Assembly: GCA_031177355.1 (NCBI GenBank)
Contig: JAPSGR010000005.1
Span: forward strand, 1-64,000
DNA from: Candidatus Nitrosocosmicus sp.
Lineage (GTDB): Archaea > Thermoproteota > Nitrososphaeria > Nitrososphaerales > Nitrososphaeraceae
DNA length: 64,000 nucleotides
Direction of reading: 5' to 3'
The notes below the pieces were generated by a model. The model made no database searches. It was not told the DNA's origin and worked only from the letters and a program-made list of their open reading frames with translations. Below, in pieces: positions 619 to 33,599 of this stretch. Each line of letters starts with the position of its first letter. Position 1 is the first letter of the stretch. A program made the translations under genes and the position numbers.

Positions 619-1725
619 TCAATCAAATTTATTAATTATTGATTTTAATCCTTTTAAGGACTCTGATGTATCTAGTGCTTCAAGTAAATTTTTTAAACTG
701 AATGTATTTGAAATCAGGTTTCTAATGTTAATTTCTTTGGAATTAACTAGCTCCATTGCCTCGCTGAGGTTCTGAGGGTTAGAGCTAAAACTTCCAGTGA
801 CAGTAACTTGATTATAATGAATGAAATTTGCGTCTATTAAAACATCATTATCATGATTTTTCATGTTGGAAGGATTCTTGACTCCTGAAAATAAAATTAT
901 GTTTCCATTTTTGTTAACCAATTGCAATGCGACTTTTAAAGACCTTATATCATTGTTGGAAACAAAAATCAAGTTAGGAGCAACATTTTCCATCGGTCCA
1001 TGTATATGATCGCGAGGATTTGTAAAAAAGTGTTCATCTTTTATTTCGTATATATAATCAGCACCGAGTTTTCTTGCCATATCCAACCGTGGTCTTATCT
1101 TGCCTATCATTGTGATTTGTCTGTCTGGGAATTGTTTTTTGAGTAACATCAGTTGCATTAATCCAATTGGTCCGTCGCCAATTATTATAATAGATTCGAA
1201 ATCGTTATTTTTAATTTGAGATAACCCATTCACACAGCACGCTAAAGGCTCAATAAGCGAAGCTTCCTCATTGCTGGTACTGTCCAACACTGGAACTATC
1301 CCCCCTATTTCAAAAATAGCTTTGGGAATTGAGATATACTCTGCAAACCCTCCATTAAGGGATGAACCCAGTTCCTTTAAATTAGAACAAAGATTATATT
1401 TCTTATGTTTACAATACCAGCAATATAAACACGGTATAACTGGGTATACAGATACTCTTTGGTTAGCCTTCACGCTAAAATTTTCTCCACAGTATGTATC
1501 AATAGTTTCGGCGCATATTTCATGTCCGAGTATTACAGGTGGATTAACTTTAAAACTTCCATGTCTATATGTTCTCACATCATAACTGCATACAGAACAA
1601 GAGAGCACTTTTAGTACAATGCTGTCAACTGAAGGCACAGGCATATTGACATTTTCTATTCTTAATTTATTAGGTCCATAAAACAGAGCGGCATCCATCT
1701 GTGTACCAATCTGTTTTGATGACAA
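619..1725 (-). CDS. zinc-dependent medium-chain alcohol/polyol dehydrogenase
   Basis: A 368-residue MDR-superfamily protein of normal length. Catalytic zinc ligands are visible as C46, GHE at 67-69 and E161 in an EP motif. A structural zinc site has the spacing C-x2-C-x2-C-x7-C at about 99-113. The Rossmann loop GDGPIG is at about 185-190. These are the features of the sorbitol/threonine dehydrogenase branch, which oxidises a secondary alcohol or sugar alcohol with NAD(P). Substrate cannot be read from sequence. It is transcribed divergently from the TatD-type hydrolase, with only 41 bp between starts, so the two probably share a promoter region. Confidence 0.9.
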   Translation of the reverse strand: MSSKQIGTQMDAALFYGPNKLRIENVNMPVPSVDSIVLKVLSCSVCSYDVRTYRHGSFKVNPPVILGHEICAETIDTYCGENFSVKANQRVSVYPVIPCLYCWYCKHKKYNLCSNLKELGSSLNGGFAEYISIPKAIFEIGGIVPVLDSTSNEEASLIEPLACCVNGLSQIKNNDFESIIIIGDGPIGLMQLMLLKKQFPDRQITMIGKIRPRLDMARKLGADYIYEIKDEHFFTNPRDHIHGPMENVAPNLIFVSNNDIRSLKVALQLVNKNGNIILFSGVKNPSNMKNHDNDVLIDANFIHYNQVTVTGSFSSNPQNLSEAMELVNSKEINIRNLISNTFSLKNLLEALDTSESLKGLKSIINKFD

Positions 1726-1766
1726 AGTTATAATTGTTATATAGAATTAGTTGATAAAAATTTGAT

Positions 1767-2576
1767 ATGACGCGATATTTTGATCCACATGTGCATATGT
1801 ATTCCAGAACGACCGATGACTATGAAAAGATGTCGATAGCTGGTATAGAAGTGGTAGTTCAACCCTCGTTTTGGCTCGGTTCTCCTAGAACTAGTGTAGG
1901 AACTTTTATTGATTATTGGGAGCACATGATATCATTCGAACCAAAAAGAGCAATTGAATATGGGATCCAACATTACACGTGTATTTCAGTTAATCCAAAA
2001 GAATCTATTCAGAGACCACTTGCATTCGATGCAATGGAAGCTATGATTGAAGGAAAATTTTTAGATAGAGAACGCGTCGTTGGTTTAGGCGAAATAGGAT
2101 ATAATCTTATTAATGATCTGGAGGAAGAAATTTTTGTAGAACAGTTAAATTTTTGTAAAAAACAAGATCTTTTAGCAATGATACATCTGCCTCACAACAA
2201 TAAGCCCGAAGCGATTAAAAAAATGAAAACAATTTTTGATACCGGAAAGTATAACTATAATAAAATTTTGATAGATCACAACACCGAGGAAACGATAAAA
2301 GAAACGTTAGATTTAGGGGTATGGGCAGGATTATCAGTGTATCCAGTTACCAAATTAAACCCCAAGAGAGTAATAAATATAATAAACCAATACGGAAGCG
2401 ACAGGGTAATGGTAAATAGTGCCGCAGACTGGGGAGTATCGGATCCCTTAAGCGTTCCACTGACAGCAAGAGATATGAGAATTAACTCTTGCAAAAGTAA
2501 GGATATCGAGAAAATTACCTTTTTGAATGCGTATGAATTTTATAGACAGTCAAAGCGATTTGATTGGAAGCCATAA
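1767..2576 (+). CDS. TatD-family metal-dependent hydrolase (EboB-like)
   Basis: A 269-residue TIM-barrel hydrolase. The TatD metal set is recognisable: HxH at residues 8-10 near the N-terminus, the GEIG glutamate at about 109, H140 in MIHLP, H171 in IDHN and D221 in SAADWG. Family members are nucleases or hydrolases with two divalent metals. The sequence is closer in style to the TatD-like proteins of bacterial ebo clusters than to housekeeping TatD DNase, but this is an impression from memory. It is divergent from the MDR dehydrogenase. Other families of the ebo set (TIM-barrel isomerase, UbiA-like, phosphodiesterase) lie within the next 14 kb on the same strand. Confidence 0.85.
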   Translation: MTRYFDPHVHMYSRTTDDYEKMSIAGIEVVVQPSFWLGSPRTSVGTFIDYWEHMISFEPKRAIEYGIQHYTCISVNPKESIQRPLAFDAMEAMIEGKFLDRERVVGLGEIGYNLINDLEEEIFVEQLNFCKKQDLLAMIHLPHNNKPEAIKKMKTIFDTGKYNYNKILIDHNTEETIKETLDLGVWAGLSVYPVTKLNPKRVINIINQYGSDRVMVNSAADWGVSDPLSVPLTARDMRINSCKSKDIEKITFLNAYEFYRQSKRFDWKP

Positions 2577-2761
2577 TTCAAAATAGATTAAATCATAATT
2601 ATTTCGCGATATCAATCTAAATCGGGGCCCTTTTTTGTAATATTTATTATTTAAAGAATATGTTTATGACGTTGTCATTTAATTTGATATTACTGTTGTC
2701 CATTGATCCAGGTTGAAAAGAAGTTAATTTTAAAATAAGAAATTAGTGAATTTTTTTATTT

Positions 2762-3508
2762 TTACTTAATCAGTTTCTTATAATTAGCATATAATGTAGA
2801 TTTAGCTATGTCGTCCGGATTAAAAATTTTTATTGATCTAACGGAATTCTCAAAATCTTGTAAATATTTATTGAACTCATCTTCACTAGCAGTGAATCCG
2901 ACTAAAATTACAGAATTGTCCGAAGTTGCAAAAGCATAGGCTTCAGTAATAATTGTTGACGCTCCTACCGTACAAATGTAACGAGATTGTTCTGCCTTTA
3001 AATTGTTAATTGTAATGATTTTAGGAACTTCTGGGTCACAATATTCATCTTCTGGAGATTGCAAATCAGGTGTATTAGTCCCGTCGGCTTCTGAAGAAAT
3101 ATTTGTTGGACTTGTGTTGATAGAATCACTTATTTGATTATAGATCTCATTGTTGATACTATTTATCATCATTACAGTTTCAGGTTCATCTCCGGTTGTT
3201 AAATCGATACTATAAGGACTCACCATTACCATGTCGTGAAGAAAGTTTATCTGATTTCCAGTCCAGTTGTTTGGCAAAGTAATTGAAAATCCGGTCACAT
3301 TATTTATATAAGTCCCATTAACCTTTGGTAAGGTCAAATCAAGATCAGGCAAATGAGTGATACCGTTGCTTGAATTTGAAATAAGTGAATCAATCACTAA
3401 TGCAGAATCATTAGTTTGTGATTGAACATCATTTGTATTCACCGTTGATGCCATGGCTAACAAAAGCGCAATCCAAAGCCCACTGAATCCTCTTAAGTAA
3501 ATATGCAT
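2762..3508 (-). CDS. exported protein of unknown function
   Basis: A hydrophobic N-terminal segment (LWIALLLAMAS) followed by polar residues and VQSQ looks like a signal peptide. The mature part contains a segment beginning FSITLPNNWTG, reminiscent of PsbP/Tfp-type beta domains in archaeal exported proteins, and two cysteines (EYCDPE, RYICTVG) that could form a disulfide. ATG at 3508 is preferred; a TTG at 3526 would add six residues. It is monocistronic, with 2 kb of poorly coding DNA upstream. No specific function can be assigned. Confidence 0.75.
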   Translation of the reverse strand: MHIYLRGFSGLWIALLLAMASTVNTNDVQSQTNDSALVIDSLISNSSNGITHLPDLDLTLPKVNGTYINNVTGFSITLPNNWTGNQINFLHDMVMVSPYSIDLTTGDEPETVMMINSINNEIYNQISDSINTSPTNISSEADGTNTPDLQSPEDEYCDPEVPKIITINNLKAEQSRYICTVGASTIITEAYAFATSDNSVILVGFTASEDEFNKYLQDFENSVRSIKIFNPDDIAKSTLYANYKKLIK

Positions 3509-3976
3509 GATTGAAATATTGACCAAATGACTAACTTATTTTTCTTTCTAACCGGGCATGCACTGCATTTTATAACTACTGATCATATCTGTGAGATAAT
3601 TTTAGTTCGTTCTGTAATTTAATAGCTATTTTAATATTAGTGGTTGCATTTGAAATCCAAATAAAATTTTAATCTTTAAACAAATTTCTAAATTTGAAAG
3701 ATTCAAGTCAAGTATAGCATGACAACAATACACAAATAATACTGGAAACAATATTTTCCATAATTAATTCATACTACTAGCAGAAACAATTATCATTTCA
3801 AAGTTATTTTATAAATAGTTCAACCTAACATGGTGCTTTAACAATTGAATGAAATATAACACCGTGTATCTGAGAAAATGTCATATTGCAAAATATTAAC
3901 AAAATGGTTGTTTAGGTACAAATAACAAATTTTTAAAATTTGTTTGTTGCATACTATTTCCAATCCTTATTGAATT

Positions 3977-4132
3977 CTAATATTTTTCTTCCTCTTGCAT
4001 GTATTTTACAATTCTACTAGCAATCTGAAGATCTGTAGCTTTGTTAATATTCTGTATATCTGTAGGGTCAGTGCCGATTTTATATCTATTAGCAGCTGTG
4101 CTTCTAAGGCCTCTGGGTCTAACTTTTTTCAT
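3977..4132 (-). CDS. small basic protein, 51 aa, hypothetical
   Basis: An ATG-initiated 51-residue frame starting MKKVRPRGLRSTAANRYKIG and ending in a charged helix (MQEEEKY). The basic N-terminus with RPRGLRS, followed by an amphipathic helix (NKATDLQIASRIVKYM), suggests a small nucleic-acid-associated protein, but the family is not recognised. Codon use looks coding rather than random, and the low-complexity bias of the surrounding AT-rich DNA is absent. It is one of several short frames in a 2-kb stretch with no long gene. Confidence 0.5.
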   Translation of the reverse strand: MKKVRPRGLRSTAANRYKIGTDPTDIQNINKATDLQIASRIVKYMQEEEKY

Positions 4133-4332
4133 ACTTTGTGGATTAAAAAACTATAAAACCGGTCAACAAACCTTTTAAAAAAATTTATATTTTTAAGGCG
4201 TTTCATATGTATCCTTCAAGAACCACTTACCTATCTGTTACAATATTATAACACCAGGCATAGGTAATGTAGGTAGAATAAATATAAATTATTTAGAGCC
4301 ATCTATCAAGGTCCTAAATAAATATAAAAAAT

Positions 4333-4482
4333 TTAAGATACACCACTTGGCTGCTTATGCTCTGCGTGTTCTAGCTTCATATGTTCTTCTTTTTCATCAT
4401 TAGTTTGAAAAGTAAGTCCACATAGATTGCAAGTGTGTCCTGAATTTGTACCTGCCGCTGCTGCTGGCTGTTCTGTTGCCAT
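4333..4482 (-). CDS. small C2H2 zinc-finger protein, 49 aa
   Basis: An ATG-initiated frame with a single classical zinc finger: C18-x2-C21-x12-H34-x4-H39, with the hydrophobic core residues (L, F) of the fold in place. An Ala-rich N-terminus and a short polar tail (EHKQPSGVS) flank the finger. Single-finger C2H2 proteins of about 50 residues are common in archaea and are thought to bind DNA or RNA or act as adaptors; the role here is unknown. The overlapping 77-residue frame at 4377-4610 on the same strand is out of phase and lacks the zinc ligands, so this one is preferred. Confidence 0.75.
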   Translation of the reverse strand: MATEQPAAAAGTNSGHTCNLCGLTFQTNDEKEEHMKLEHAEHKQPSGVS

Positions 4483-4708
4483 ACTAATTCTACTAATACA
4501 AATGTAAATATAAGCATTCTATCTTGACCGACCTTGAGAGATCTTTTTGCTATCAACATTCTTTTTCGTCGATTGAGGATAGTGCGAAAATTTCCTATTT
4601 TAAGGCTCAATTAGTTGATATCTACATCAATAAATAATTCAAACTTGTTTTGATAAAGATCTCATCAATGATGTGATCTTCAATTTTCTCCCTTGTGTGA
4701 ATATCTTT

Positions 4709-5003
4709 CTAGGATGACATTTTTGAAAAATCACTTTTAGATTGAGCCATGACTTTTCTTATCTTTGTAAAATAAATATTAACAACAGAAGTGAACAAGA
4801 CATAGCATCTGAAAATTTGCATATAATCGGAAAAGCCGAGTAAACTTTGAAACACATAGGCTAAGAAATTAAATGTGATTGGAATTAGAGTTAGTAACAT
4901 ATTAACAAGGCTGCCTGCCAAAGCACTAGGAAGTATTACCAATAAGTTTCAGAATTGGTAGACTATACTTCATTAATAGTTCTCTTAATGTGACTTTTTT
5001 CAT
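4709..5003 (-). pseudogene. probable frameshifted small membrane protein
   Basis: An ATG at 5003, preceded by a purine-rich GGTAGG, opens MKKVTLRELLMKYSLPILK and stops at 4926. A second frame on the same strand (4709-4942) continues with a strongly hydrophobic segment (LVILPSALAGSLVNMLLTLI), a second hydrophobic stretch and a polar C-terminus. Joining the two near 4940 with a one-base shift gives a plausible 95-residue protein with two to three membrane segments. The second frame on its own has only a TTG start and no good upstream signal. It may be a decayed gene, a base-call error or chance overlap. Confidence 0.4.
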
Positions 5004-5089
5004 CCTACCTTTTTTTTAATCAATCATAATAATGGAATAAACTAACTAACTATATTATTTCTTTAAACCAACATACAACTATACTCTAA

Positions 5090-5386
5090 ATACCTACGCT
5101 TTTTTTTGGAGGAAATGATGTACCTCAAATAACAATGGCACTTATAGATGACAACAAATGAGGAATAAAGTACAACTTAGTGTAATTTCTCAACCTCCTA
5201 AGACCTCATGTACAATTTTTGTTACTTGTGACAATGACATTTTGGTTAAAGGTATTGACTTAAAGCCTATACATACGGAAGTTGTGAATTTGTTTTAGCG
5301 GAGAATATAAACCAAATACTTATGAGGACATAGTCTTTCAGTGTCCTTCTTACAAATCTAATAATGAGATAACAAGCATAGACTAA
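5090..5386 (+). pseudogene. decayed reading frame with two frameshifts
   Basis: Three consecutive frames read like one protein. The first (from 5090, no start codon) gives TLFFGGNDVPQITMALIDDN and stops at 5159. The second (ATG 5158 to stop 5298) gives RNKVQLSVISQPPKTSC and so on to IHTEVVNLF. The third (from about 5299 to TAA at 5386) gives SGEYKPNTYEDIVFQCPSYK and a short tail. The second junction falls in a TTTT run, where removing one T restores the frame. The protein family is not recognised. A chance assembly is possible, but residue composition is protein-like across both shifts. Confidence 0.4.
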
Positions 5387-5570
5387 TAACCATTTTAAAC
5401 AATTCTATATCCTCATATTTTCTAACTCGATAAAAATGAGTCTGACAATACTTTGTTTTAGCAGGACAATCTTGTTATTTACGAATAATGGTCTCTAACA
5501 TCAATATGATTCAAAGAATGTAAATACAAGATATATTTATTATTATATGAGAAAGGTAGGCATATGAAAT

Positions 5571-6236
5571 ATGGAAGGGATAGAAGACAACAATGAAAAC
5601 GATTCTAACATTATAAAAAAATTCCTCCTTGAAATATCTGGAAGATTCAAGGTTAACTCTACAGTTGAGTTCTCCAATTATCAGGAAGCGCTCGAATCAT
5701 TCAACCAGCATTCAAAGTCTGGCAAAAATCTAATTCTTTACGAGGTCCATAAATCTACGCTAAACGGAACTGTTGTTAAAAAGGTTCCAGTATTAAACAC
5801 ATCAAAACATGCAGAAAGGTTGAGGATGCTTGAGGAAGAAAAAGCAAGGGCTAAAGCATTATCACAAAAGGGATCCGATACCTCTTCCCCCTCGGCCAGT
5901 TACACCTCGTCGTCTTCATTGCCATCGGCCGGCGGGTCTTCGCCATCAACACCATCCTCATTTTCGCCAGGCTCCCCGGATGGGCAGGCTAAAAAAAATA
6001 AAGTAACACTTGCAAGCATGAAGTATAAAATCATCATTTTGGCAGCAGTGGTAGCAGGCTTTATTGTGACCTTGTTAATAGTTAGTATACTTGCCGACAT
6101 CAACAGTGGCGGCGGCTTGGGAGGAGGAGGCCACCATGTGACAGTATATGAAACAATGCATAATTATCTTCAAATATCTCTTGGCGAATTTGACAAAAGT
6201 GACCACAGTATAATCTCAAGCGATTTGTCGTATTAA
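5571..6236 (+). CDS. single-pass membrane protein with Ser/Pro-rich linker
   Basis: A 221-residue protein in four parts: an N-terminal alpha/beta-looking domain (residues 1-75), a charged coiled segment (AERLRMLEEEKARAKAL), a Ser/Pro/Gly low-complexity linker (about 100-140), and one membrane helix (IIILAAVVAGFIVTLLIVSI, about 152-172) followed by a Gly/His-rich extracellular tail. There is no signal peptide, so the N-terminal domain is probably cytoplasmic. The start has GAAAGGTAGG upstream. The linker has higher GC content than its surroundings. Family not recognised. Confidence 0.75.
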   Translation: MEGIEDNNENDSNIIKKFLLEISGRFKVNSTVEFSNYQEALESFNQHSKSGKNLILYEVHKSTLNGTVVKKVPVLNTSKHAERLRMLEEEKARAKALSQKGSDTSSPSASYTSSSSLPSAGGSSPSTPSSFSPGSPDGQAKKNKVTLASMKYKIIILAAVVAGFIVTLLIVSILADINSGGGLGGGGHHVTVYETMHNYLQISLGEFDKSDHSIISSDLSY

Positions 6237-6438
6237 GCCTGATATGAAACAAAGTCTATAATACAAATAGCTTTATGATTAACGGGACTGTTCTGCGAAG
6301 GCTGTTTGGTAAGCATATTTCTTTATATGATTTCAATAATACTTTTTTTAAGTTAAATATGCCTTAAGAATTTAGAAATAATATAGTTTTTGTCAATTAT
6401 TCCCAATTAGATAATAAGGTTACTTTTTATTATCTTAT

Positions 6439-7770
6439 GTGATTAACCGATTTTTTATAATTTTGATAATGGGGATCACTTGCACTGCTGTACTAATTGT
6501 TATGGCCGCATCAGCCGTAATAGCAACAACAACAACAACAACAACAATAACAGATAATGAAATGGACAATACCTTATTATCCAAATTCTACAATTTTGTA
6601 TCGAGTTCATTATTTATCAAGTATGACTATGCATACGGTCAGGCAACAGACGATTTTCAAACGTTCTCCTTATCCTTGTCAACACCTTATTCAGATATGC
6701 CCATTGGTTTTGAAGGCACATTATCCGATATAGAAACACTAAAAGATGACCTGGATGACTCTCTGAAAGAGACTATAATGCCATCATCACCTTCACCATC
6801 GTCACCATCACCACAAGATAAACATATCACAAAAGGTGATAAAGTATTGGATTTTTCTCAATCACCACTTTTAAAATCAAAAGATACTGATATTGATAAA
6901 GATAATAAATATAACTCAAACAAAGAAAATGTTTATGTTGTTGACTATAAAAACATCAGAGTTCAAAAATTCACAGATGAAGGAAACTTTATCTTAAAGT
7001 GGGGTACAAATGGCAGAGACAACGGTCAATTCGGCGTGCCACATGGAATAGACTTGGACAAAAAGGGCAATGTGTTTGTAGTAGATATGAACAATAACAA
7101 TGTACAAAAGTTTGACAGCGAAGGTAATTTTCTATTAAAGTGGGGTTCTATGGGTACGGATGATGGTCAGTTCATGCATCCGCACAGTATTGCACTAGAT
7201 TCTAATGCAAATGTGTATGTGACGGATATGGCAAGCTTTAATGTACAAAAGTTTGACAGCGAAGGTAATTTTCTATTAAAGTGGGGTTCTATGGGTACGG
7301 ATGATGGTCAGTTTAATGCACCAGAAGGAATAGCAATAGACTCTTTAGATAACGTGTATGTAAGTGACACTGACAATAACAATGTACAAAAGTTTGACAG
7401 CGAAGGTAATTTTCTATTAAAGTGGGGTTCTATGGGTACGGATGATGGTCAGTTTAAACGCCCTGCAGGGTTGGATGTCGATGATGCAAACAATGTATAT
7501 GTGGTAGATGCGGGAAATAACAGAATTCAAAAATTTAACTCAGAAGGCCATTTCATAACCTCTTGGGGATCAAAGGGTTCTCAACCCGGAGATCTTTCAA
7601 GTCCACACGATATAGCAATCGATTCAGTAGGAAACTCTTTTGTTGTAGAACAGGATAATTTCAGAGTACAAAAGTTTGATGCAGATGGCAAGCATATCTC
7701 CTCTTGGGGATCTGAAGGTGGATCCGATTATCAATTTCTAGATCCGCATAGCGTAGCTGTAGGGCACTGA
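6439..7770 (+). CDS. exported NHL-repeat beta-propeller protein
   Basis: GTG start. Residues 1-30 form a signal peptide or membrane anchor followed by a poly-Thr run. Residues 40-160 are a Ser/Pro-rich linker. From about residue 160 to the end there are six NHL repeats with the pattern NVYVVD...NNVQKFDSEGNFLLKWGS..GDGQF..P.GIA.D. Such repeats build a beta-propeller that binds proteins or ligands outside the cell. Three successive repeats are nearly identical even at DNA level (see repeat entry). It ends 70 bp before a strong hairpin terminator. Probably a cell-surface adhesion or binding protein; ligand unknown. Confidence 0.85.
   Translation: MINRFFIILIMGITCTAVLIVMAASAVIATTTTTTTITDNEMDNTLLSKFYNFVSSSLFIKYDYAYGQATDDFQTFSLSLSTPYSDMPIGFEGTLSDIETLKDDLDDSLKETIMPSSPSPSSPSPQDKHITKGDKVLDFSQSPLLKSKDTDIDKDNKYNSNKENVYVVDYKNIRVQKFTDEGNFILKWGTNGRDNGQFGVPHGIDLDKKGNVFVVDMNNNNVQKFDSEGNFLLKWGSMGTDDGQFMHPHSIALDSNANVYVTDMASFNVQKFDSEGNFLLKWGSMGTDDGQFNAPEGIAIDSLDNVYVSDTDNNNVQKFDSEGNFLLKWGSMGTDDGQFKRPAGLDVDDANNVYVVDAGNNRIQKFNSEGHFITSWGSKGSQPGDLSSPHDIAIDSVGNSFVVEQDNFRVQKFDADGKHISSWGSEGGSDYQFLDPHSVAVGH
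7099..7454 (+). repeat. three identical 74-bp blocks with 141-bp period
   Basis: Blocks at 7099-7172, 7240-7313 and 7381-7454 are identical in nucleotide sequence and encode NVQKFDSEGNFLLKWGSMG plus TDDGQF. The intervening 67 bp differ. The 47-codon period equals one propeller blade unit. Conserved silent positions indicate recent duplication or gene conversion of the blade core. Confidence 0.95.
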
Positions 7771-7838
7771 TGATACTTTGATGTTGGCTCCTAACTTCTT
7801 TAACAACAAGTAAGGGCTGGTTCAGATAATCTGTCAGA

Positions 7839-7868
7839 GCGGCTGGTAGCCGCAATGGCCATTTTTTT
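7839..7868 (+). terminator. hairpin plus T-tract terminator
   Basis: GCGGCT-GGT-AGCCGC forms a perfect six-base-pair stem at 7839-7853 and is followed by a short AATGGCCATT palindrome and seven T residues (7862-7868). It lies between the NHL protein and the next gene. The T-tract is the recognised archaeal termination signal; the stem may add stability. Confidence 0.65.
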
Positions 7869-7963
7869 GTATCTTTTTATCTTCTCTTTTATTAAATTGT
7901 ATCCAGAGCATTTTTGTTATATTGTAATAACTTTTTAACTTGTTAAAAAATATCATCTCTATT

Positions 7964-8797
7964 ATGAAATTTGCGTTTAGTTCAAATGCCTTTACAAAAT
8001 ATTCATTAATTGATTCGCTAAAAGAAATTGCCCAATTAGGATATCAAGGCGCAGAGATCTTGTGCGATATACCTCACGCGTATCCACCCACTTTAAACAA
8101 TCAAAAAATCCAGGAAATCAAAAATACTTTAGATAAATATAATTTGCAAATTTCAAACTTGAATGCATTTACCCTTTTTGCATTAGGAGATACTTACCAT
8201 CCTTCATGGATTGATCCAGATAAAGAAAAAAGACAAGCCCGAATACAGCATACAATAGATTGTATTGATCTTGCTTTTCAACTGGGTGCTAAAAACATAT
8301 CAATAGAACCGGGTGGTCCAACAAATCTTTTAGAAAATAAGATGAGCAGACAACAGGCATTAAGGTTATTTCAAGAAGGTATTGACCAGGTGCTGCCTGA
8401 GGCTGAGAAAAAAATGATTAAAATTCTAATCGAGCCTGAGCCTGAGTTATTATTGCAAACATCCATAGAGTTTGTAGAATTTATGAAAAATTTTGATTCT
8501 AAATACCTAAAACTAAATTTTGATATTGGTCATTTTTATTGTGTAAATGAAGATCCAAGTAACTTGATTTTGAGGCTTAGAAAGTTTATTGGACATTTTC
8601 ATATGGCAGATATTAAAGACAGGGTGCACTATCATTTAATACCAGGATTGGGAACAATTGATTATAATAGAGTGTTCAAAACCATCAAAGAGATAAATTA
8701 CGATGGATTTGTCACAGTTGAACTTTATCCATACAAGGAAAATCCAATAGAAGCAGCTACGAGATCAATTAATTTTATAAATACTTTAGACTATTAA
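7964..8797 (+). CDS. TIM-barrel sugar isomerase/epimerase-like protein (EboE-like)
   Basis: A 277-residue xylose isomerase-like/AP endonuclease 2 superfamily TIM barrel. Candidate metal and acid/base residues are E157 (LIEPEPE), D187 and H190 (NFDIGH), H213 (HFHMADIKD), H224 and E253 (TVELYPY). Family members isomerise or epimerise sugars or cyclic polyols with a divalent metal. ATG at 7964 is chosen; a TTG at 7940 would add eight residues. The UbiA-like gene follows after 30 bp, suggesting co-transcription. This isomerase/UbiA pairing is also found in bacterial ebo clusters. Substrate unknown. Confidence 0.8.
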   Translation: MKFAFSSNAFTKYSLIDSLKEIAQLGYQGAEILCDIPHAYPPTLNNQKIQEIKNTLDKYNLQISNLNAFTLFALGDTYHPSWIDPDKEKRQARIQHTIDCIDLAFQLGAKNISIEPGGPTNLLENKMSRQQALRLFQEGIDQVLPEAEKKMIKILIEPEPELLLQTSIEFVEFMKNFDSKYLKLNFDIGHFYCVNEDPSNLILRLRKFIGHFHMADIKDRVHYHLIPGLGTIDYNRVFKTIKEINYDGFVTVELYPYKENPIEAATRSINFINTLDY

Positions 8798-8827
8798 TTA
8801 TACAAAAAAATATCTGCATGAAGTATC

Positions 8828-9823
8828 TTGTTAAATAATCCATACCTTAAACTTTTACGAATTCCAAATATTTTTACAGTACCGCCTGATATCATATTAG
8901 GGTTCCTTATTGCGATATCATCATTTGAGGTTTCTTATTTTTTATCTCAAGGCAACACTATAGCAAACCTTCTCATGCTGATTATCTCTTCTATTTTGTT
9001 ATACCTTGGAGGATTAGTTTCAAATGATTTCTTTGACATTAAAGCAGACAAGATCGAGCGACCAAGCCGACCTTTGGTCTCTGGTGCTATACAAAAAAAA
9101 GTAGCGGTTACTCTTGTTATTTTATTTTTTGTATCAGGATGTCTTTTATCCTTGCTTGTTAATATTACAAGTACCGCAGTAGCAGTTTTTTTGATAACTT
9201 TGATAATTTTGTACAATTTTAAGTTAAAGAACGGGTTTTATAGACCCTTTATAATGGGGTCTATTCGTTCCCTAAATATTATATTTGGCTTTAGTTCATT
9301 TATTGGTTTTTTCGGTGCACATACTGTAATGTCATCCCCTCAAATTCCTTTTGGATATAATACAGAACCACACTCATTTATGTTACTATCTTTAGTATGT
9401 ATTTCTATTTTCTTTCATATCTTTATGTTGACTTTTGTTAGCTCTAAAGAAACTTCGAGAGAGTTTTCTTTAAAAAATAAGTTAGGCATTAATATTAAAA
9501 AGATATTTTATGTTTATATCTCGTTTCTTATTATAATAGGAATTATTGGAACGCTCTTAGTAGAGCATCCAAGAGATTATTTGGTCTTTCTTATAATTCT
9601 AGGAATATCGTCTAGTTTGGTTTATTACAAGGCTCATCAAAAAATATTGAATTTGAAGGAGGGTAGCCTGGCAATGCAATTTATAGTAAAAAACATGATA
9701 ACTTTGCTTATCTTGCTTGATTCCACGTTTATAGCGGGCATCTCTGGGGCCTTGATTGGGCTGGTTGTAGCTTTTTTTATATTTCCTGTCATTTTTTTAA
9801 GTAAAAAAATCAACATGACCTGA
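8828..9823 (+). CDS. UbiA-family prenyltransferase-like membrane protein (EboC-like)
   Basis: A 331-residue protein with about eight or nine membrane helices. The first Asp-rich motif NDFFDIKAD (66-74) and the following RPSRPLVSG match UbiA prenyltransferases, where the aspartates bind Mg-diphosphate. In place of the usual second DxxxD motif there is GSIRSLNIIFGFS, as in the UbiA-like EboC group, so transferase activity is uncertain. TTG start. It lies 30 bp after the TIM-barrel gene, probably in one operon. It could alternatively be a geranylgeranylglyceryl phosphate synthase-type lipid enzyme, but the second-motif change argues against this. Confidence 0.85.
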   Translation: MLNNPYLKLLRIPNIFTVPPDIILGFLIAISSFEVSYFLSQGNTIANLLMLIISSILLYLGGLVSNDFFDIKADKIERPSRPLVSGAIQKKVAVTLVILFFVSGCLLSLLVNITSTAVAVFLITLIILYNFKLKNGFYRPFIMGSIRSLNIIFGFSSFIGFFGAHTVMSSPQIPFGYNTEPHSFMLLSLVCISIFFHIFMLTFVSSKETSREFSLKNKLGINIKKIFYVYISFLIIIGIIGTLLVEHPRDYLVFLIILGISSSLVYYKAHQKILNLKEGSLAMQFIVKNMITLLILLDSTFIAGISGALIGLVVAFFIFPVIFLSKKINMT

Positions 9824-9976
9824 ATCTAGTTTTTTTTGGATATAGTTGACTTCATATTACCTTTGGCTTGATAATTTTTTTGTTCATCATTTGAATTGTT
9901 TATTTTACGAGTGGCTATCTTGTGTTTAGAAAATGTAATCTAATAAGGGAGTCACCATAGGTTCTTAAACCCTTTT

Positions 9977-10468
9977 TTGACTAATAGGTTTGTGAAAAAG
10001 AATAACCTTTCAATTATATTTACAGTCCTTCTAGTCAGCAGTTTTGCAACTGTTGTTCTGGTTCTAGATTCGTCAAATAAAAATGTGGCAGTTCTGGCGC
10101 AGACCCCATCATCCTCTTTAAACTCCACTAACACCACCCCTAATAATACAACCCCTTTTATATCTGAAGGAAATTCAACATATTCTGGCACAGGCTCAAT
10201 TACTTCTGAAACCAATGATAAAGATGTCTCTACCACTATATTAATTCCCAACCCCAAGTCGTCATCTTCCGACCCAACTCAAAAGGACTCTTCAAATTTA
10301 ACTACAGCTTCAAATGCAACGCAGCGAGGTGAATATAAGGTAGATAGCAATGGTGTTCACTATTATGATATCAACAATTGCAGCCTAGTTAAAGGCTCCT
10401 CAGGAATTGGAGATCTATCAGAATGCGAAGATGCAGAACGAGTTATTAAGAAAGAACAAAGAGGTTGA
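9977..10468 (+). CDS. exported Ser/Thr/Asn-rich protein
   Basis: The N-terminus has basic residues (VKKNN), a hydrophobic core (LSIIFTVLLVSSFATVVLV) and a VLAQ cleavage-like site, i.e. a signal peptide. Residues 40-120 are a Ser/Thr/Asn/Pro linker with several N-x-S/T sequons. The C-terminal 40 residues carry two cysteines (NNCSLVKG, LSECEDAE) that may pair. The start may be TTG 9977 or GTG 9992; the latter leaves a cleaner signal peptide. An overlapping minus-strand frame (9952-10257) is antisense noise. Function unknown; probably cell-surface. Confidence 0.7.
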   Translation: MTNRFVKKNNLSIIFTVLLVSSFATVVLVLDSSNKNVAVLAQTPSSSLNSTNTTPNNTTPFISEGNSTYSGTGSITSETNDKDVSTTILIPNPKSSSSDPTQKDSSNLTTASNATQRGEYKVDSNGVHYYDINNCSLVKGSSGIGDLSECEDAERVIKKEQRG

Positions 10469-10539
10469 TATTTCCTCATTCAATAATCCTTTCCTTTTTT
10501 TTGAAATGTTAAATAACTATTGATGTATAATACTACTAA

Positions 10540-10902
10540 TTAACTTATTTTTTCTTTTACATCTGTTATCTTATTCTTATCTCTAAAAGCCATTATCCCA
10601 GCAATTACAAATAGAGCTAAGGCAGGAATTGCAAACCATTGAATTAATGCAAAGAGCAGAACCCCGCAGGCAATAAGTATTGCTCCCACCAGTTTTGTGT
10701 TTTTGAGTTTAAAAGATGCCACAATTGCTCCCACATTGATTGCAATAATTGCAACGGCAATTAACAAGGCCCAACCAACAACCAAAGCCAATAGTGGAAT
10801 TCCAATAAAACTATTAATAAAAAAGTAAAGAAAAAGACCAATGAACGGGATAATCATTCCTAATATAGCAGTAATAATTGTTAATTTCTGGTAATTTTTC
10901 AT
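10540..10902 (-). CDS. small four-helix membrane protein
   Basis: A 120-residue protein with four hydrophobic segments (about 8-30, 36-60, 70-85 and 88-105) and a charged C-terminus (RDKNKITDVKEKIS). Topology and Ala/Ile/Leu composition resemble DUF4064-type small membrane proteins, but that is only a resemblance. ATG start. Monocistronic and convergent with the preceding exported protein. Function unknown. Confidence 0.75.
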   Translation of the reverse strand: MKNYQKLTIITAILGMIIPFIGLFLYFFINSFIGIPLLALVVGWALLIAVAIIAINVGAIVASFKLKNTKLVGAILIACGVLLFALIQWFAIPALALFVIAGIMAFRDKNKITDVKEKIS

Positions 10903-11311
10903 CTCTAATTCTAGTTAAAGATAATAACTATTAAACAACGCTATAATTTTTTTGATCGATGACTTTGTGTAAAAACTAAAAAAAATGGTAATTGATTAAA
11001 TGCATCCCCATTCTGTTATCACAAATAAAGTATGCATTTACAAATCTGGTCAAATCTTTAGATAAAAAAAGCCTAAGTAAAGAGAGTATCATGTGTAATT
11101 GATTACTACTATGAAATGAATCGACCTTGTTCGAAGAGTTTGAATTACTAATTTCGATCACAAGTAATCGATTCACTTCATATGTATCTTTGTATAAAGT
11201 CGTTTGACTACATATACAATTGTATCTGCATTTACATATGTCAATCACCAAGCGATATTATTTGTGGTACAGATATCTAAACAAAATTGATATTTAAAAG
11301 ATATAACCATG
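10903..11311. other. non-coding or weakly coding stretch
   Basis: About 400 bp between the four-helix protein and the next candidate. A 91-residue minus-strand frame (10976-11251) exists, but its composition is not protein-like. No RNA gene or repeat is seen. Confidence 0.5.
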
Positions 11312-11419
11312 CTAATTTTTTCTTACAGAACGATTGAATATTGAAGCAAGTCTTTTTTTAATTGATTTGATAAACCCTTGGTTTGTGTTACCTGATTCAT
11401 TTGGATTCTCAGATATCAT
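11312..11419 (-). CDS. possible 35-aa basic micropeptide
   Basis: An ATG frame with a polar N-terminus (MISENPNESGNTNQ) and a basic amphipathic C-terminal helix (FIKSIKKRLASIFNRSVRKN). An archaeal TATA-like CTTAAATAG lies about 30-40 nt upstream of the ATG on the minus strand, which fits a short or absent leader. The length is short enough for chance; support is composition plus promoter only. Confidence 0.35.
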   Translation of the reverse strand: MISENPNESGNTNQGFIKSIKKRLASIFNRSVRKN

Positions 11420-12114
11420 AATTTTATATATAACAACAATCTATTTAAGCCGGATCCGCAAGTACCCCATCTTAAAAAATTAATAAATTTAATTTATCAT
11501 ATCTTCACGATACTTCTTCTGCATATTTTCCATATTCTACATATTCTCCTTCGTATATCGATAAGATTTAATAATGATTAAACGACAGCAGTATTTTAAC
11601 AACTCAAATACCTTTTCTTTCTAAAAAATTAATAAATGAAGTACCAACAGCCGAGCGCCTGTGTTATCCGTATTAGCAACGATATATCCAGACCGTGTAA
11701 CCTCCATTTAGTCAAAAGTTATCTCAGGCTCCGTTCAAATAGCTTCATATTTGTTTATACAATCTAAAGAGGGCTTGTTGCAAAATGATTATTAAATTAT
11801 CTTTACGAATTAAATTAGACCGCAGTCGAAATTCTCTCGGTAACAGATCACCTCAAGCTCGTATTGTTTTGTTAGCAAAAAAATCTTAATAACAGAACAG
11901 ATCATTTATCTTTGAGAAGTTAGATTGATGTAAAAGAAGATCCTCATTAAAGGAAAAGTTTAGCCGTTACTATAGAATGATCTTTATTTGGATGTTTCTA
12001 AAAAAACAACCTTAATAAAAGAAAATATTTTCTATTTAAAACTACTCTAAGATACTCATATTCTATTTTGAAATACCATATATATATTGAATTGTAATAG
12101 TAAAATTTACAGAC
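11420..12114. other. 695-bp gap without a recognisable gene
   Basis: All six frames are broken. The right end holds a CATATATATA element about 35 nt before the ATG at 12115, a likely promoter for the next gene. Nothing else is seen. Confidence 0.55.
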
Positions 12115-12378
12115 ATGAATACAAGTAAAACATTACTATTATCGACAGCAGTAATACTTGCATTTGCTTTGGTCTTGGCTCCGTTAGCTGCAGCTGATGA
12201 TGCATTTGCTGGAAAGAAAAAAGTAAATAAGGCAAAACAAAGTATCAGTCAATCACAATCATCAAGTCAAAACAGCCAAGTAGTTTCTGGCGGCAGTTCC
12301 ATAGCTTCTGGAAACAACATCAACTTACAGTTCCAATCAAACTCTGGTAACAACGCTTTAGCACAATCAAACAACTAA
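12115..12378 (+). CDS. small exported Gln/Ser/Asn-rich protein
   Basis: An 87-residue protein with a clear signal peptide (TLLLSTAVILAFALVLAPLA) followed by ADDAFAG, a cleavage-site style common in thaumarchaeal exported proteins. The mature part is almost entirely polar (Q, S, N, G). It has a segment SNSGNNALAQSNN whose G-N-x-A-L-A-Q spacing resembles a curlin-type repeat strand. Composition fits an aggregation-prone or surface-fibre subunit, but only one such strand is seen. A TATA-like element lies about 35 nt upstream and the leader is short. Confidence 0.7.
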   Translation: MNTSKTLLLSTAVILAFALVLAPLAAADDAFAGKKKVNKAKQSISQSQSSSQNSQVVSGGSSIASGNNINLQFQSNSGNNALAQSNN

Positions 12379-12780
12379 CTATAAGTATACACCATACAAT
12401 ATATTTTTTTATTTAATACCCCCATAAGCTAATTGAATGCTTTAAGATAATAGTAATCACATATAATATGAAGTATTTTACAATTTCGTTTGCTATTTTT
12501 TACTCTACCGAATCAATATTCGACATAGATTTATCACATAACCGTGTCGATACAATTTTGATTCCGAAAGGTCTTGGAGGCAATACAGCCATCTCCCACT
12601 TACAAGAAAATCCTTGCACATGATGTCTCAAATATTAAATTTGTAGCTATGATTGTTAATCATCACAAATAAACCATTGATGTTAATCTAGTATTCTATC
12701 GCGTAAACAAACAGTAGTCCGTCAAACACATTAGAAATTTGACTTTTATTGTTTTTTTTTTGGTAATAAAATAGGTTTAT
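12379..12780. other. intergenic region with a possible 51-aa ORF and inverted repeat
   Basis: An ATG frame at 12468-12623 (+) encodes 51 residues starting MKYFTISFAIFYSTESIF and containing ILIPKGLGGN; it could be a micropeptide or a remnant, with no family match. An inverted repeat TCGACA (12520-12525) / TGTCGA (12545-12550) lies within it. Neither is convincing alone. Confidence 0.3.
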
Positions 12781-12972
12781 TTAAATGAAAGTTGAAAATT
12801 GGGTGACATTAAAAATCATCCTCTTTTTCAATTTCCTATTAGCCAATTGATTTTTTAGTACCGCCATGTCTACCCATTCAACAACTTCCAGATTTTCCAG
12901 ATGTGTATTGGATTGATGGTAAAGCCATTGGGCATCAAGCAAGGGATTTGGTAGTTTTTCGCTTGACAACAA
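12781..12972 (-). CDS. small hypothetical protein, 63 aa
   Basis: A TTG-initiated frame on the minus strand with mixed, protein-like composition (LLDAQWLYHQ, LENLEVVEWVDMAV, basic NRKLKKR). It is preceded on the minus strand by GTTTAAATATT about 40 nt upstream, a TATA-like box. No family recognised, and no signal peptide or membrane segment. A chance ORF is possible. Confidence 0.35.
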   Translation of the reverse strand: MLSSEKLPNPLLDAQWLYHQSNTHLENLEVVEWVDMAVLKNQLANRKLKKRMIFNVTQFSTFI

Positions 12973-13139
12973 TGCTTCCTATTAGATGCATTATTAGGTT
13001 TGCCTAACAAATATTTAAACAATTCTCTAATTCTCTATCAATAAAACAAGACACAACGATAACGAAATAATAACTAGCGACTTTGAATAAACTATTATCT
13101 TCATAAATTTAAATATATATATCTTGATAATACATTGTA

Positions 13140-13286
13140 ATGGCAAAATGTCCCTATTGCAAAGAAATGATCAATTTAAGTCAGCTTATAACAGAAGAGT
13201 TTGAAGACGGAGACTTGTTGTTTAAGTTTTTGGGTTTGAGTTGTCCTAACTGCCAAGTGTTATTAAAGATACAAAAAATTGATTAA
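13140..13286 (+). CDS. small zinc-ribbon protein, 48 aa
   Basis: ATG start. Two CPxC knuckles (CPYC at residues 4-7 and CPNC at 35-38) separated by an acidic/hydrophobic segment form a typical zinc ribbon. The C-terminus is a short beta-strand-like tail (VLLKIQKID). Such stand-alone ribbons occur widely in archaea as nucleic-acid or protein-binding modules; the partner is unknown. TATA-like AAATATATAT lies about 30 nt upstream. Confidence 0.75.
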   Translation: MAKCPYCKEMINLSQLITEEFEDGDLLFKFLGLSCPNCQVLLKIQKID

Positions 13287-13370
13287 TTTCTGATAACGTA
13301 TTTGCATTTTTGATACTGTAATAACCCTTTCTTAATTTACTTGTAGAATAGATATAAAGGGGTAAGAGAG

Positions 13371-13390
13371 GAAAGGAAAGGAAAGGAAAG
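13371..13390 (+). repeat. GAAAG x4 simple repeat
   Basis: Four perfect GAAAG units inside a purine-only run (about 13358-13400) upstream of the phosphodiesterase gene. This is a short microsatellite-like tract that may vary in length. Confidence 0.8.
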
Positions 13391-13548
13391 AGAAGAAAAA
13401 ATAGTAGCAAACAAAGTGCTAATATTTGTAGTTAATCTATATATCAAATTGATGAGATTGCTAGCCACATTTTTTAGGTTTATGAAAATTCGGTTGCTTC
13501 AAGCCTTCAAATAACAAATAAATGGTTTAAAGTTATTTTAAAAAATGT

Positions 13549-15012
13549 TTGTCAAACAATATTACTAAATCAAAATACTTTATTATTTTAGATATAGTGG
13601 GCTTGGACGTATCTCATTTAGACTCACAATCCCAAAAATATCAAAATATTTCCAGTTTAATTGAATCTGTTGAATCTGCCGGAGGTGGGAGAGGAGGAAG
13701 AGGAGGAGAATATGGTTACATGAAACCAGTTTTTCCTTCAGTAACATGTACGGTACAATCAAGCCTAACCACAGGCAAATACCCTTCCGAACATGGAATA
13801 ATATCTAATGGTATGTTCGATAGAGAGAATCTTCAAACAATGTTTTGGGAGCAATCCACACATCTGGTTCAATCTAAAAAGGCATGGGATGTAATAAAAC
13901 AACATAATATAGATTTAAAAACTGCAATGCTGTTTTGGCAAAACTCTTTGTATACAAATAATGACTTTGTTATCTCACCTCGTCCGATTCATCTAGAAAA
14001 TGGCCAGATGGACCTGTGGTGTTATTCTAAACCAGTAAACTTTTACGAAGACGTAATCAAAAGTTTAGGTGAATTTAATTTAATGAACTATTGGGGACCA
14101 TTTGCTTCTATAAAATCATCAGAATGGATTACAAGTGCAGTTCAATATACAATAAAAAAGAAGAGGCCAAATCTGCTTTATGCTTACTTTCCGCAAATAG
14201 ATTACACCGCTCAAAAACATGGTAAAAGCAGTTCCCAGGTACAAGATGACCTACAAAAGATAGATAGTTTTGTGGGCTCCATCATTTCAACTGTCAAAGA
14301 GTCAGGGATATTCGACCAAACCCAATTTGTATTACTCTCCGAATATGGATTCAATGATGTAAGCAAGGCGATTTCTATTAACAGGATTCTTAGGGATAAA
14401 GGGCTACTACAAGTCAGAACCATTAAAGATAAAGAGTACATTGATTATGAGTATAGTGAGGCTTTTGCCATGGTAGATCACCAAATTGCTCATATTTATT
14501 TAAATAATTCTGGTAAGTCGAAAATTGATACAATAAAAAAGGCTATAGAAGAAATAACTGGTATAGAAAGTGTTTGCGGTGAAACAGAAAAGAAAAATTT
14601 ACATATAAATCATCAAAGAAGCGGAGACTTGATTGCCATAGCCGACAAGGATAAATGGTTCAGCTATTATTGGTGGTATGATGAAATAATGAAAGATTTT
14701 GCTGATAGTGATGCAGACGCCAAATCCTTAAGCGACAAAGCGCCGACATTTACCAAAACAGTGGACATTCACAGAAAGCCAGGTTATGATCCGCTGGAAC
14801 TTTTCATAGACCCAGAAAGGAAATGCATCTCAACTAATACTAGCTTGATAAAGGGTTCTCATGGAAGACCGTTTAACACCGACACTGGTGAGGGACTGTC
14901 CGCTTTTGTGTCTAATAAAAAAGTAGAGAATATTTCAAAAGAAACGTTCAATGGTCATTCATTAATTGATTGCATAGATATCTTTAAATTAGTAACAAAA
15001 AATTTCACTTAA
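13549..15012 (+). CDS. alkaline-phosphatase-superfamily phosphodiesterase (EboF-like)
   Basis: A 487-residue type I phosphodiesterase/nucleotide pyrophosphatase-like protein. D15 is the first metal aspartate. The catalytic-loop FPSVTCTVQSSLTTGKYPSE (62-81), with its nucleophilic Thr and EHGI following, is well conserved. IDYTAQKHG (about 220) supplies a D..H pair and GSHG (about 440) the last histidine. The usual DH of SDHGM is replaced by EY in SEYGF (about 264). There is no signal peptide, so it is probably cytoplasmic. TTG start. The next gene, a TIM-barrel isomerase, begins 35 bp downstream; together they recall the ebo metabolite cluster. Confidence 0.85.
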   Translation: MSNNITKSKYFIILDIVGLDVSHLDSQSQKYQNISSLIESVESAGGGRGGRGGEYGYMKPVFPSVTCTVQSSLTTGKYPSEHGIISNGMFDRENLQTMFWEQSTHLVQSKKAWDVIKQHNIDLKTAMLFWQNSLYTNNDFVISPRPIHLENGQMDLWCYSKPVNFYEDVIKSLGEFNLMNYWGPFASIKSSEWITSAVQYTIKKKRPNLLYAYFPQIDYTAQKHGKSSSQVQDDLQKIDSFVGSIISTVKESGIFDQTQFVLLSEYGFNDVSKAISINRILRDKGLLQVRTIKDKEYIDYEYSEAFAMVDHQIAHIYLNNSGKSKIDTIKKAIEEITGIESVCGETEKKNLHINHQRSGDLIAIADKDKWFSYYWWYDEIMKDFADSDADAKSLSDKAPTFTKTVDIHRKPGYDPLELFIDPERKCISTNTSLIKGSHGRPFNTDTGEGLSAFVSNKKVENISKETFNGHSLIDCIDIFKLVTKNFT

Positions 15013-15046
15013 ATGAATTTTCACAAACTTATTAAGGCGTTGTAAG

Positions 15047-15883
15047 ATGGTCTTTTCGTATGCAATAACTTTATCATCTTTTTTAAAATTGGGCGAAAAA
15101 TTTGAGACAACTTTAGAGAATCTAAATGAAATGGGCATATCCAATTTAGAAATGTATGGGGAACCTGAAGAAATTAATTCATCTTATTTCAAAGATATTT
15201 TCTCTGTACATCGAATGCGAATTACAGGTATAACAGGCATGTGGGGTAAATCTAGTCGCAATGGATGGAAAAGGAGGTTACTAAGCAAAGATCCTGGATT
15301 AGTGAAATACTCTGAAGATTATGTAATCAGCTGCATAAAGCTTTGTGACTACTTTGGAGGAGATAAAATTAATATTTGTCTTTTTTCTGATCCTATAAAT
15401 CTTTTTGATGTTACACATAGTAACGTAATTTTGGATGAAAAAATCAAATTAATTGAAAAGTGTGTACCAGTATTAAACAATCTTTCTTCTATTGCAAGAG
15501 ATCATAATATTGACCTAATTATTGAACCACTAAACCGTTACTCTACACCATACTGCTGCAATCTTGAAGACGCATCAATTTTACTAAATAATTGCCCCCA
15601 GCTACAATTAATGCTAGATACCTTCCATATGAATATTGAGGAAGATTCATTTAGTCATACCATAATGAAAGCAAAAGATTGGTTAGTTCATATGCATTTT
15701 GCAGATAATAATAGAAAAATGCCAGGTGAAGGTCATATTGATTTTAGAACCATAATTATAGCGCTAAAGAAAATATCATTTACTGGATTTATCAGCTTTG
15801 AGCCAATTATTTCATTCATTAACTACCAAAAGAAAATTAAGTATGGATTAGACTTTATAAAAAACTTGGATTCAAAGTATTAA
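15047..15883 (+). CDS. TIM-barrel sugar-phosphate isomerase/epimerase
   Basis: A 278-residue xylose isomerase-like superfamily protein. The metal and catalytic tetrad of the ketose 3-epimerase/hydroxypyruvate isomerase type is visible: E160 (IIEPLNRY), D191 and H194 (LDTFHM), H217 (MHFADN), H230 (GEGHIDF) and E252 (SFEPI). The RY motif after IIEPLN is typical of tagatose/psicose 3-epimerase relatives. Start ATG 15047. It is 35 bp after the phosphodiesterase gene and likely shares its transcript. It is the second barrel of this superfamily in 8 kb, so the two may act on related intermediates. Confidence 0.85.
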   Translation: MVFSYAITLSSFLKLGEKFETTLENLNEMGISNLEMYGEPEEINSSYFKDIFSVHRMRITGITGMWGKSSRNGWKRRLLSKDPGLVKYSEDYVISCIKLCDYFGGDKINICLFSDPINLFDVTHSNVILDEKIKLIEKCVPVLNNLSSIARDHNIDLIIEPLNRYSTPYCCNLEDASILLNNCPQLQLMLDTFHMNIEEDSFSHTIMKAKDWLVHMHFADNNRKMPGEGHIDFRTIIIALKKISFTGFISFEPIISFINYQKKIKYGLDFIKNLDSKY

Positions 15884-30565: not shown

Positions 30566-31360
30566 ATGGTCCTTGGGAAAGAAATACGTCTTAACCGCAT
30601 TCTTAAGAAAGGCAAAATGTTGTGCATCCCATTAGATCATGGGATAAGTAGTGGACCCATAGAAGGCATAAAAAACATTGCTAAATTGATCGATCAAACT
30701 CAAGATTCTGGATTGACTTGTTTTCTTGTCAATAAGGGTATAATCAAATCATTACCTGTAGCTCCAAATATTGGGATTATTGCTCATATGTCAGCGGCTA
30801 CATCACTTGGTCCTGATCCTAATAATAAAATTTTAATGGGCTCGGTCAAAGAGGCAATTAGGTTAGGAGCGGACGGCGTATCATTGCATATCAATATAGG
30901 ATCAAAAGAGGAACCTAATATGTTATATAAACTTGGACTTGTTGCAGATGAATGCAATGAATGGAATATCCCGTTAATTGCCATGATGTATCCAAGAGGT
31001 GAGAATATCAAGAATCCACATGAACCCTCGGTTGTTGCCCATGCTGCAAGGATTGGTGCAGAAGCTGGAGCAGATATTGTCAAAACTGTTTACACCGGTG
31101 AGATGAATTCTTTCAAAGATGTCGTAAAGAGTTGTCCTGTCCCTATCGTTATTGCAGGAGGTCCGAAGTCTAACACTGATACTGAAATATTGCAAATGTG
31201 TAAAGATGCCATGAAGGCAGGAGCTATTGGAGTAACCTTTGGAAGAAATATTTTTCAACATAGAGAGCCCAATGAAATAATAAAAGCCCTATATTCTATA
31301 ATATTTGAGAGGGATTATAATGAAGGAACCAAACATAAAAATGGTAAAAAATCATCTTAG
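30566..31360 (+). CDS. 2-amino-3,7-dideoxy-D-threo-hept-6-ulosonate (ADTH) synthase
   Basis: A 264-residue DhnA-type class I aldolase. CIPLDHGISSGPIEGI is the N-terminal signature; DIVKTVYTG carries the Schiff-base lysine; VIAGGPK and GAIGVTFGRNIFQH bind phosphate. In archaea without DAHP synthase, this enzyme joins aspartate semialdehyde to a sugar-derived fragment to start the shikimate pathway. The DHQ synthase II gene overlaps its 3' end, confirming the pathway. ATG start. Fructose-1,6-bisphosphate aldolase of the same family is the alternative; the neighbour decides against it. Confidence 0.92.
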   Translation: MVLGKEIRLNRILKKGKMLCIPLDHGISSGPIEGIKNIAKLIDQTQDSGLTCFLVNKGIIKSLPVAPNIGIIAHMSAATSLGPDPNNKILMGSVKEAIRLGADGVSLHINIGSKEEPNMLYKLGLVADECNEWNIPLIAMMYPRGENIKNPHEPSVVAHAARIGAEAGADIVKTVYTGEMNSFKDVVKSCPVPIVIAGGPKSNTDTEILQMCKDAMKAGAIGVTFGRNIFQHREPNEIIKALYSIIFERDYNEGTKHKNGKKSS

Positions 31361-32531: not shown

Positions 32532-32608
32532 TATTGTTAAATTTTTTTATCAATGTGTTTATATTTTTAGAGTAATAAGATTATGGACTCGCTGCAAAAA
32601 AGTGGTCT

Positions 32609-33484: not shown

Positions 33485-33599
33485 GGCATACCAATCCTTG
33501 AGATTATTTTAAAAAACTCATAGATGGGCTCGTTACCAGTTAGTATGATATAAGCATAGTTTATATCTTTTATTCCCACACATTAGCATTCTAGGGTAC

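Follow-up and report, generated by a model that had tools for sequence, protein, structure and literature searches.

The ebo genes have been described as a gene cluster of bacteria and plastids. In cyanobacteria, they help to export a building block of a sunscreen. Nostoc with ebo deleted fails to produce scytonemin, and a glycolipid carrier with a link to capsule export has been proposed (PMC6282210). Yurchenko et al. proposed a hybrid isoprenoid–cyclitol product for ebo, plastid ebo included (PMC5133447), and Ubi-297, a bacterial EboC, can attach farnesyl groups to quinoline acids in vitro (PMC9235831). The full-text literature that we searched (with closed journals and preprints outside it) reported ebo from bacteria and plastids only, and contained no prior report of ebo in archaea. 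Here, we describe a gene set in a 64,000-nt stretch of a Candidatus Nitrosocosmicus sp. genome (contig JAPSGR010000005.1, positions 1–64,000; hereafter, the window) that we identify, with high confidence, as an ebo-type cluster in an archaeal version; this soil-type ammonia oxidizer shares it with scattered relatives.

The set comprises five genes on the plus strand and a divergent MDR dehydrogenase gene (Table 1). A reading-frame check placed the five frames at or very near their predicted positions, and Pfam assigned them, in order, to TatD_DNase, AP_endonuc_2, UbiA, Phosphodiest, and AP_endonuc_2. For the first TIM barrel (TIM1), the ATG at 7967 is a better start than the predicted 7964. 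The gaps between TIM1 and EboC and between EboF and the second TIM barrel (TIM2) are just 30 and 34 bases, so that each pair forms an operon-like unit. In the window's genus, the set is organized in three linked transcription units (MDR/EboB, TIM1–EboC, and EboF–TIM2). MDR and EboB are read away from each other, and the short spacer that parts their start codons is probably a shared control region. A scan for promoters and terminators of the bacterial type gave little above shuffles. The exported proteins that lie between the ebo pieces are insertions of the window's genus and outside the shared set: Both insertions are present in genomes of this genus, whereas other genera have compact operons that lack them.

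Table 1. Features of the ebo-type gene set in the window
Feature	Position	Strand	Evidence
MDR zinc-dependent dehydrogenase, polyol/keto-cyclitol type; divergent partner of EboB	619..1725	-	Pfam ADH_N + ADH_zinc_N
Spacer (41 bases) of the divergent MDR/EboB pair, start codon to start codon; probably a control region for both genes	1726..1766		from sequence
EboB-type metal hydrolase, TatD superfamily	1767..2576	+	identity, tree, EboB signature
Insertion 1 (EboB–TIM1 gap): exported/membrane proteins, one of them with NHL repeats (6439-7770)	2762..7770		genome comparison
TIM1, xylose-isomerase-like TIM barrel, EboE-related; operon with EboC	7967..8797	+	co-occurrence, EboE profile, motifs
EboC-type membrane protein, UbiA superfamily (prenyltransferase-like)	8828..9823	+	NCBIfam, tree, motifs, fold model
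Insertion 2 (EboC–EboF gap): small exported/membrane proteins	9977..12378		genome comparison
EboF-type phosphodiesterase, alkaline-phosphatase superfamily	13549..15012	+	identity, EboF-specific motifs
TIM2, ketose 3-epimerase/IolO-type TIM barrel; operon with EboF	15047..15883	+	NCBIfam IolO, PDB TM_0416, motifs

The TatD-type hydrolase proved to be of the EboB type, as the original prediction had proposed. It is 39%–45% identical over its whole length to five bacterial EboB proteins, four of which adjoin EboA, and a tree separated it from Escherichia coli TatD and YcfH with full support (100/100). It retains the residues of the EboB signature (PHxHM..SR, GEIGY, H(T/L)PH, DHN, and ADW) and scored 28.8 bits against the housekeeping TatD model (TIGR00010; cut-off 206). 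The window's EboB belongs to a sub-clade (100/100) whose other members are haloarchaeal, Deinococcus (EboG-type), Paenibacillus, and Kiritimatiellota/Lentisphaerota/Planctomycetota sequences, away from the EboA-linked EboB proteins. The two archaeal EboB types formed a single clade in just 2% of bootstrap trees, a pattern that likely reflects separate acquisitions or exchange with bacteria.

The UbiA-like membrane protein could likewise be assigned, to EboC. Its best NCBIfam model overall was EboC (NF035940; 131.9 bits, next best 83.8), although the curated cut-off of 250 for this equivalog was not reached in the window (archaeal orthologs scored 145–191 bits). In the tree, it grouped with EboC from bacteria and haloarchaea, and the lipid-type UbiA paralogs lay apart (94/100, slightly short of the starred level). 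Of its two Asp motifs, the first is intact (NDxxDxxxD; N66 D67 xx D70 xxx D74); the second is absent, in agreement with what had been noted from the sequence, and one invariant Glu (E208) stands in its place. Nearly all EboC-type sequences examined (archaeal, bacterial, and haloarchaeal) carry this Glu, and we therefore regard the replacement as a mark of the family and not as a local defect; lipid-type paralogs keep DxEGD or a close form. The protein thus neither groups with the archaeal paralogs nor has an intact DxEGD, as a DGGGP synthase or another lipid UbiA enzyme would. Its fold model showed an all-helical UbiA fold (pLDDT 80); the fold models, built with window, archaeal, and Paenibacillus rows, support assignments at the superfamily level only. 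Together, the trees ruled out a housekeeping origin of the TatD-type and UbiA-type genes.

The phosphodiesterase is 31%–37% identical to bacterial and haloarchaeal EboF, and its assignment to this family was upheld by a family tree (built without a distant outgroup) and by EboF-specific residues. It shares the motifs LDYxxQ, SEY, and HRKPGYDP with EboF at positions where nucleotide pyrophosphatases have metal ligands; in nearly all EboF proteins, archaeal and bacterial, the D..GH of these enzymes has become LDYxxQ and the SDHG has become SEY. It is the single PF01663 match in each of five carrier archaea searched. With several of the standard phosphodiesterase metal ligands lost, the activity of this EboF may differ or be gone, and the loss of the standard two-metal ligands may mean that EboF chemistry is unusual in all ebo clusters.

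The two TIM barrels had both been counted as Ebo-type proteins, a reading that calls for correction. The EboE profile matched TIM1 (E=8e-13), which shares the EPEP and DxxHF motifs with EboE and, like EboB, retains its likely metal ligands. TIM1 is about 110 residues shorter than EboE, however, and its 42 bits against the EboE model fall far below the cut-off of 250 (the curated cut-off thus being missed here, as for EboC). Judged by sequence, it is EboE-related, the nearest relative of EboE in the set. TIM2 is instead an IolO/tagatose-3-epimerase-type enzyme by its sequence matches and not a member of an Ebo family: Of all NCBIfam models, IolO (NF041099) matched it best (121.7 bits, below the curated cut-off of 300), whereas the EboE profile gave E=0.1. 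Its best PDB match was TM_0416, it is also close to tagatose 3-epimerase, and its active-site motifs are retained (IEPLNRY, DTFHMNI, and PGxGHxDF).

We then asked where else the set occurs. In a protein search of 160 Nitrososphaeria genomes, EboB, TIM1, EboC (full-length orthologs), and EboF were found in an identical 17 genomes, in accord with the predicted co-occurrence. Such an all-or-none pattern has a Fisher exact p = 3e-23, a value that ignores relatedness. EboF was additionally found as a fragment at a contig end in one genome (G153), and the weaker EboB and EboC matches in other genomes are paralogs. Across the whole phylum (398 genomes searched), EboF was confined to the order to which the window belongs. 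The set is present in 6/6 genomes of the window's genus, and in other genera carriers made up 2/6, 2/3, 1/9, 2/9, 1/39, and 2/18 of the genomes. This patchiness inside genera indicates that the ebo set was gained or lost several times as one block.

As in the known ebo operon, the genes are physically clustered, compactly in most other carriers and as linked units in the window's genus. Compact operons came in two types. The first (EboB-TIM1-EboC-EboF-TIM2, with TIM2 after EboF) was seen in G109, G079, G156, G140, G115, and G121, and the second (TIM-EboB-TIM1-EboC-EboF) in the marine-type loci of G141, G022, G011, and G066 (L041-L044). One further genome (G082) has its ebo set in two places, ~90 kb apart. 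The three units of the window's genus are separated by genus-specific insertions but stay within about 15–25 kb; in two genomes (G070 and G127), the MDR/EboB unit has the reverse orientation, still inside the region. Because co-occurrence is all-or-none and operons are compact in other genera, the five window genes are one system and not chance neighbors. The breadth of the Pfam family names and the three separate units of the window might have suggested an accidental grouping of unrelated genes, for a housekeeping TatD, a UbiA of lipid synthesis, and isomerases; the trees, the co-occurrence, and the compact operons refute this, and we assign it next to no probability.

The MDR dehydrogenase had been left open as a substitute for a missing Ebo protein or an unrelated neighbor. 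Its close orthologs (>260 bits) occurred in 13 of the 160 genomes, namely, 12 of the 17 carriers of the full set and the genome with the EboF fragment, and in no Nitrososphaeria genome without ebo genes. It adjoins EboB in all six genomes of the window's genus and in G109, G079, and G156. This confinement to carriers and this position beside EboB rule out an unrelated neighbor, and the gene therefore belongs to the ebo set. In the four marine-type loci, the IolM-like MDR is swapped for a distant MDR, and G082 is without a close ortholog. The best NCBIfam match of the G156 ortholog was IolM (scyllo-inosose 3-dehydrogenase; 164 bits, below the cut-off of 450). We also observed a second MDR–EboB pair on another contig of G127 (G127:C6:10447-12521).

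The predicted absence of EboA and EboD was borne out in all 17 carriers. No EboA match was found in these genomes with a model that finds three bacterial records, and no EboD (sugar phosphate cyclase, PF01761) scored above cut-off, with 11 of 14 controls positive. Neither the window nor the related archaeal loci had an EboG-like match. The sole ring-forming candidate found in the archaea studied was an inositol-phosphate synthase encoded elsewhere in the genome. As a carrier-specific partner, it was ruled out by its presence in 27 of 28 archaeal genomes, and its occurrence in carriers does not prove that the set uses it. Other lineages encode the ring-forming step inside the cluster: EboD in Aureibacter, Azospirillum, Mycetohabitans, and Deinococcus, an EboD-like cyclase in Paenibacillus, and inositol-3-phosphate synthase in three of four haloarchaeal clusters and in Streptomyces. 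Since some clusters have EboD and others inositol-3-phosphate synthase, the ring-forming enzyme appears exchangeable, and the swap between the two suggests the nature of the cyclic building block.

What might such a set make? A proposal to which we give an even chance is a carrier for exported compounds that sits in the membrane, derives from a cyclitol, and is linked to a prenyl chain. The MDR dehydrogenase would oxidize an inositol-like cyclitol or keto-sugar, which the TIM-barrel epimerases/isomerases would then reshape. The membrane-bound EboC would attach an isoprenoid chain to it, and EboF and EboB would remove phosphate and one further group. This would yield an isoprenoid with a cyclitol head, which could serve in the membrane to carry or anchor a compound or surface polymer on its way out of the cell. 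We infer in which order the steps run, that the substrate is a cyclitol, that a prenyl group is transferred, and that the product has a role in export; what our data support directly is the identity of the families, their co-occurrence and linkage, the absence of EboA and EboD, and the likely metal ligands of EboB and TIM1. IolM and IolO, the best curated matches of the MDR and TIM2 orthologs (each below cut-off), act in the same inositol pathway, and these likenesses in sequence add a hint of a keto-cyclitol to the scheme. Some archaeal loci, though not all, lie among glycan genes. Directly downstream of the G156 operon are a sugar epimerase, a glycosyltransferase with DUF3492, and a PelG-like exopolysaccharide exporter (L036:13535-18372), and similar sugar-epimerase/glycosyltransferase genes lie upstream of the MDR gene, on its other side, in G079 (L035).

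The same IolM and IolO likenesses could be read as those of a sugar or cyclitol breakdown operon that oxidizes and epimerizes its substrate, with the UbiA-like protein incidental, and the haloarchaeal clusters do lie near genes for sugar handling (mandelate racemase, an ABC importer, and mannonate dehydratase). Yet every one of the 17 carriers has kept EboC, its donor-site motif included, the archaeal operons have no recurrent sugar importer or kinase as a neighbor, and those bacterial ebo genes that have been studied to date are linked to export (PMC6282210), all of which makes a breakdown operon improbable. A stronger competitor, which we hold to be possible but clearly less probable than a carrier, is that the set makes a prenylated secondary metabolite as its own end product, as in the first proposal for plastid ebo. 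The isoprenoid–cyclitol hybrid proposed there (PMC5133447) and the in vitro prenylation of quinoline acids by bacterial EboC (PMC9235831) are in line with an end product, as is a patchy distribution (2/18, 1/39, and 2/9 genomes per genus) typical of accessory metabolites. Against it, the Nostoc ebo genes are needed for the traffic of another compound and not of a product of their own (PMC6282210), and the surroundings of the archaeal operons show no recurrent genes dedicated to tailoring or resistance. If the set does make a membrane carrier, ammonia-oxidizing archaea and haloarchaea might, we suggest tentatively, both make a cyclitol-headed isoprenoid in which the ring step is supplied interchangeably by an EboD-type cyclase, an inositol-phosphate synthase in the cluster, or the housekeeping inositol-phosphate synthase with an IolM-like dehydrogenase; the general ebo product would then be inositol-like. 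For ammonia-oxidizing archaea, which are environmentally important, the set is a candidate pathway to a surface lipid or an exported compound, and carriers and noncarriers within single genera provide a list on which it can be tested.

Other genes of the window were also inspected. The exported NHL-repeat protein of the first insertion scored 223 bits against the model of the scytonemin protein ScyF (NF035926). An unlinked NHL protein of a related genome (L049) scored nearly alike (183 bits over half the length), and the gene is missing from the compact operons; the match therefore reflects the repeats, and a link to ScyF was ruled out. Elsewhere, translations predict a long shikimate-pathway run (30566-43825), from the archaeal AroA'/AroB' type to chorismate synthase and a prephenate dehydrogenase-like gene, and a putative EgtD-type histidine methyltransferase of the ergothioneine route (47093-48073).

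A comparison across lineages included at least 80 loci from a genome scan. Among the matches listed were a MAG named Nitrosopumilus (L081), in which the MDR–EboB pair is also present, and a Paenibacillus phytorum cluster (L082). A MAG labeled Rickettsia typhi (L133) has EboB and EboF genes and is more likely a mislabeled rickettsial relative; a paper reportedly describes an ebo-bearing endosymbiont with which it can be compared.

The archaeal set shares with the canonical bacterial/plastid operon (eboA-F; Aureibacter L055 and Azospirillum L060) (PMC5133447) EboB, EboC, EboF, and a xylose-isomerase-like TIM barrel, which are co-located and co-occur. It differs in being without EboA and EboD, in the shortness of this TIM barrel, and in having an extra IolO-like TIM barrel and the MDR dehydrogenase. 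The EboG-type operon of Deinococcus (L064) is also without EboA, and its EboB lies on the archaeal side of the tree; unlike the archaea, it encodes EboD and an EboE of the long form, and a short ORF occupies the EboG position. Clusters on four haloarchaeal plasmids (Halocatena L056, Natronococcus L057, Haladaptatus L058, and Halobaculum L059) have the order EboB-TIM-EboC-TIM with an EboF-type gene adjoining, and no EboA was found on these plasmids. They differ in the inositol-3-phosphate synthase that three of the four contain and in a second TIM barrel of another type; their public annotation is generic (TatD, UbiA, and sugar isomerase) and makes no reference to ebo. The actinobacterial SCO3242-type cluster (Streptomyces L061) shares a UbiA homolog (SCO3242-type), EboB, EboF, and an extra TIM barrel, and differs in having EboA, EboE, and inositol-3-phosphate synthase. 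The seven-gene cluster of P. phytorum (L082:1140-7886), whose EboC passes the curated cut-off (269 > 250), has the TIM-EboB-TIM1-EboC-EboF order of the second, marine-type archaeal operon, with a third TIM barrel and the EboD-like cyclase added. Across the lineages compared, EboB, EboC, EboF, and a TIM barrel were constant, and the ring-forming enzyme varied. The ebo cluster is widespread, and its archaeal forms allow the core to be picked out by setting the indispensable parts (EboB, EboC, EboF, and a TIM barrel) apart from those that are missing or exchangeable (EboA/EboG and EboD).
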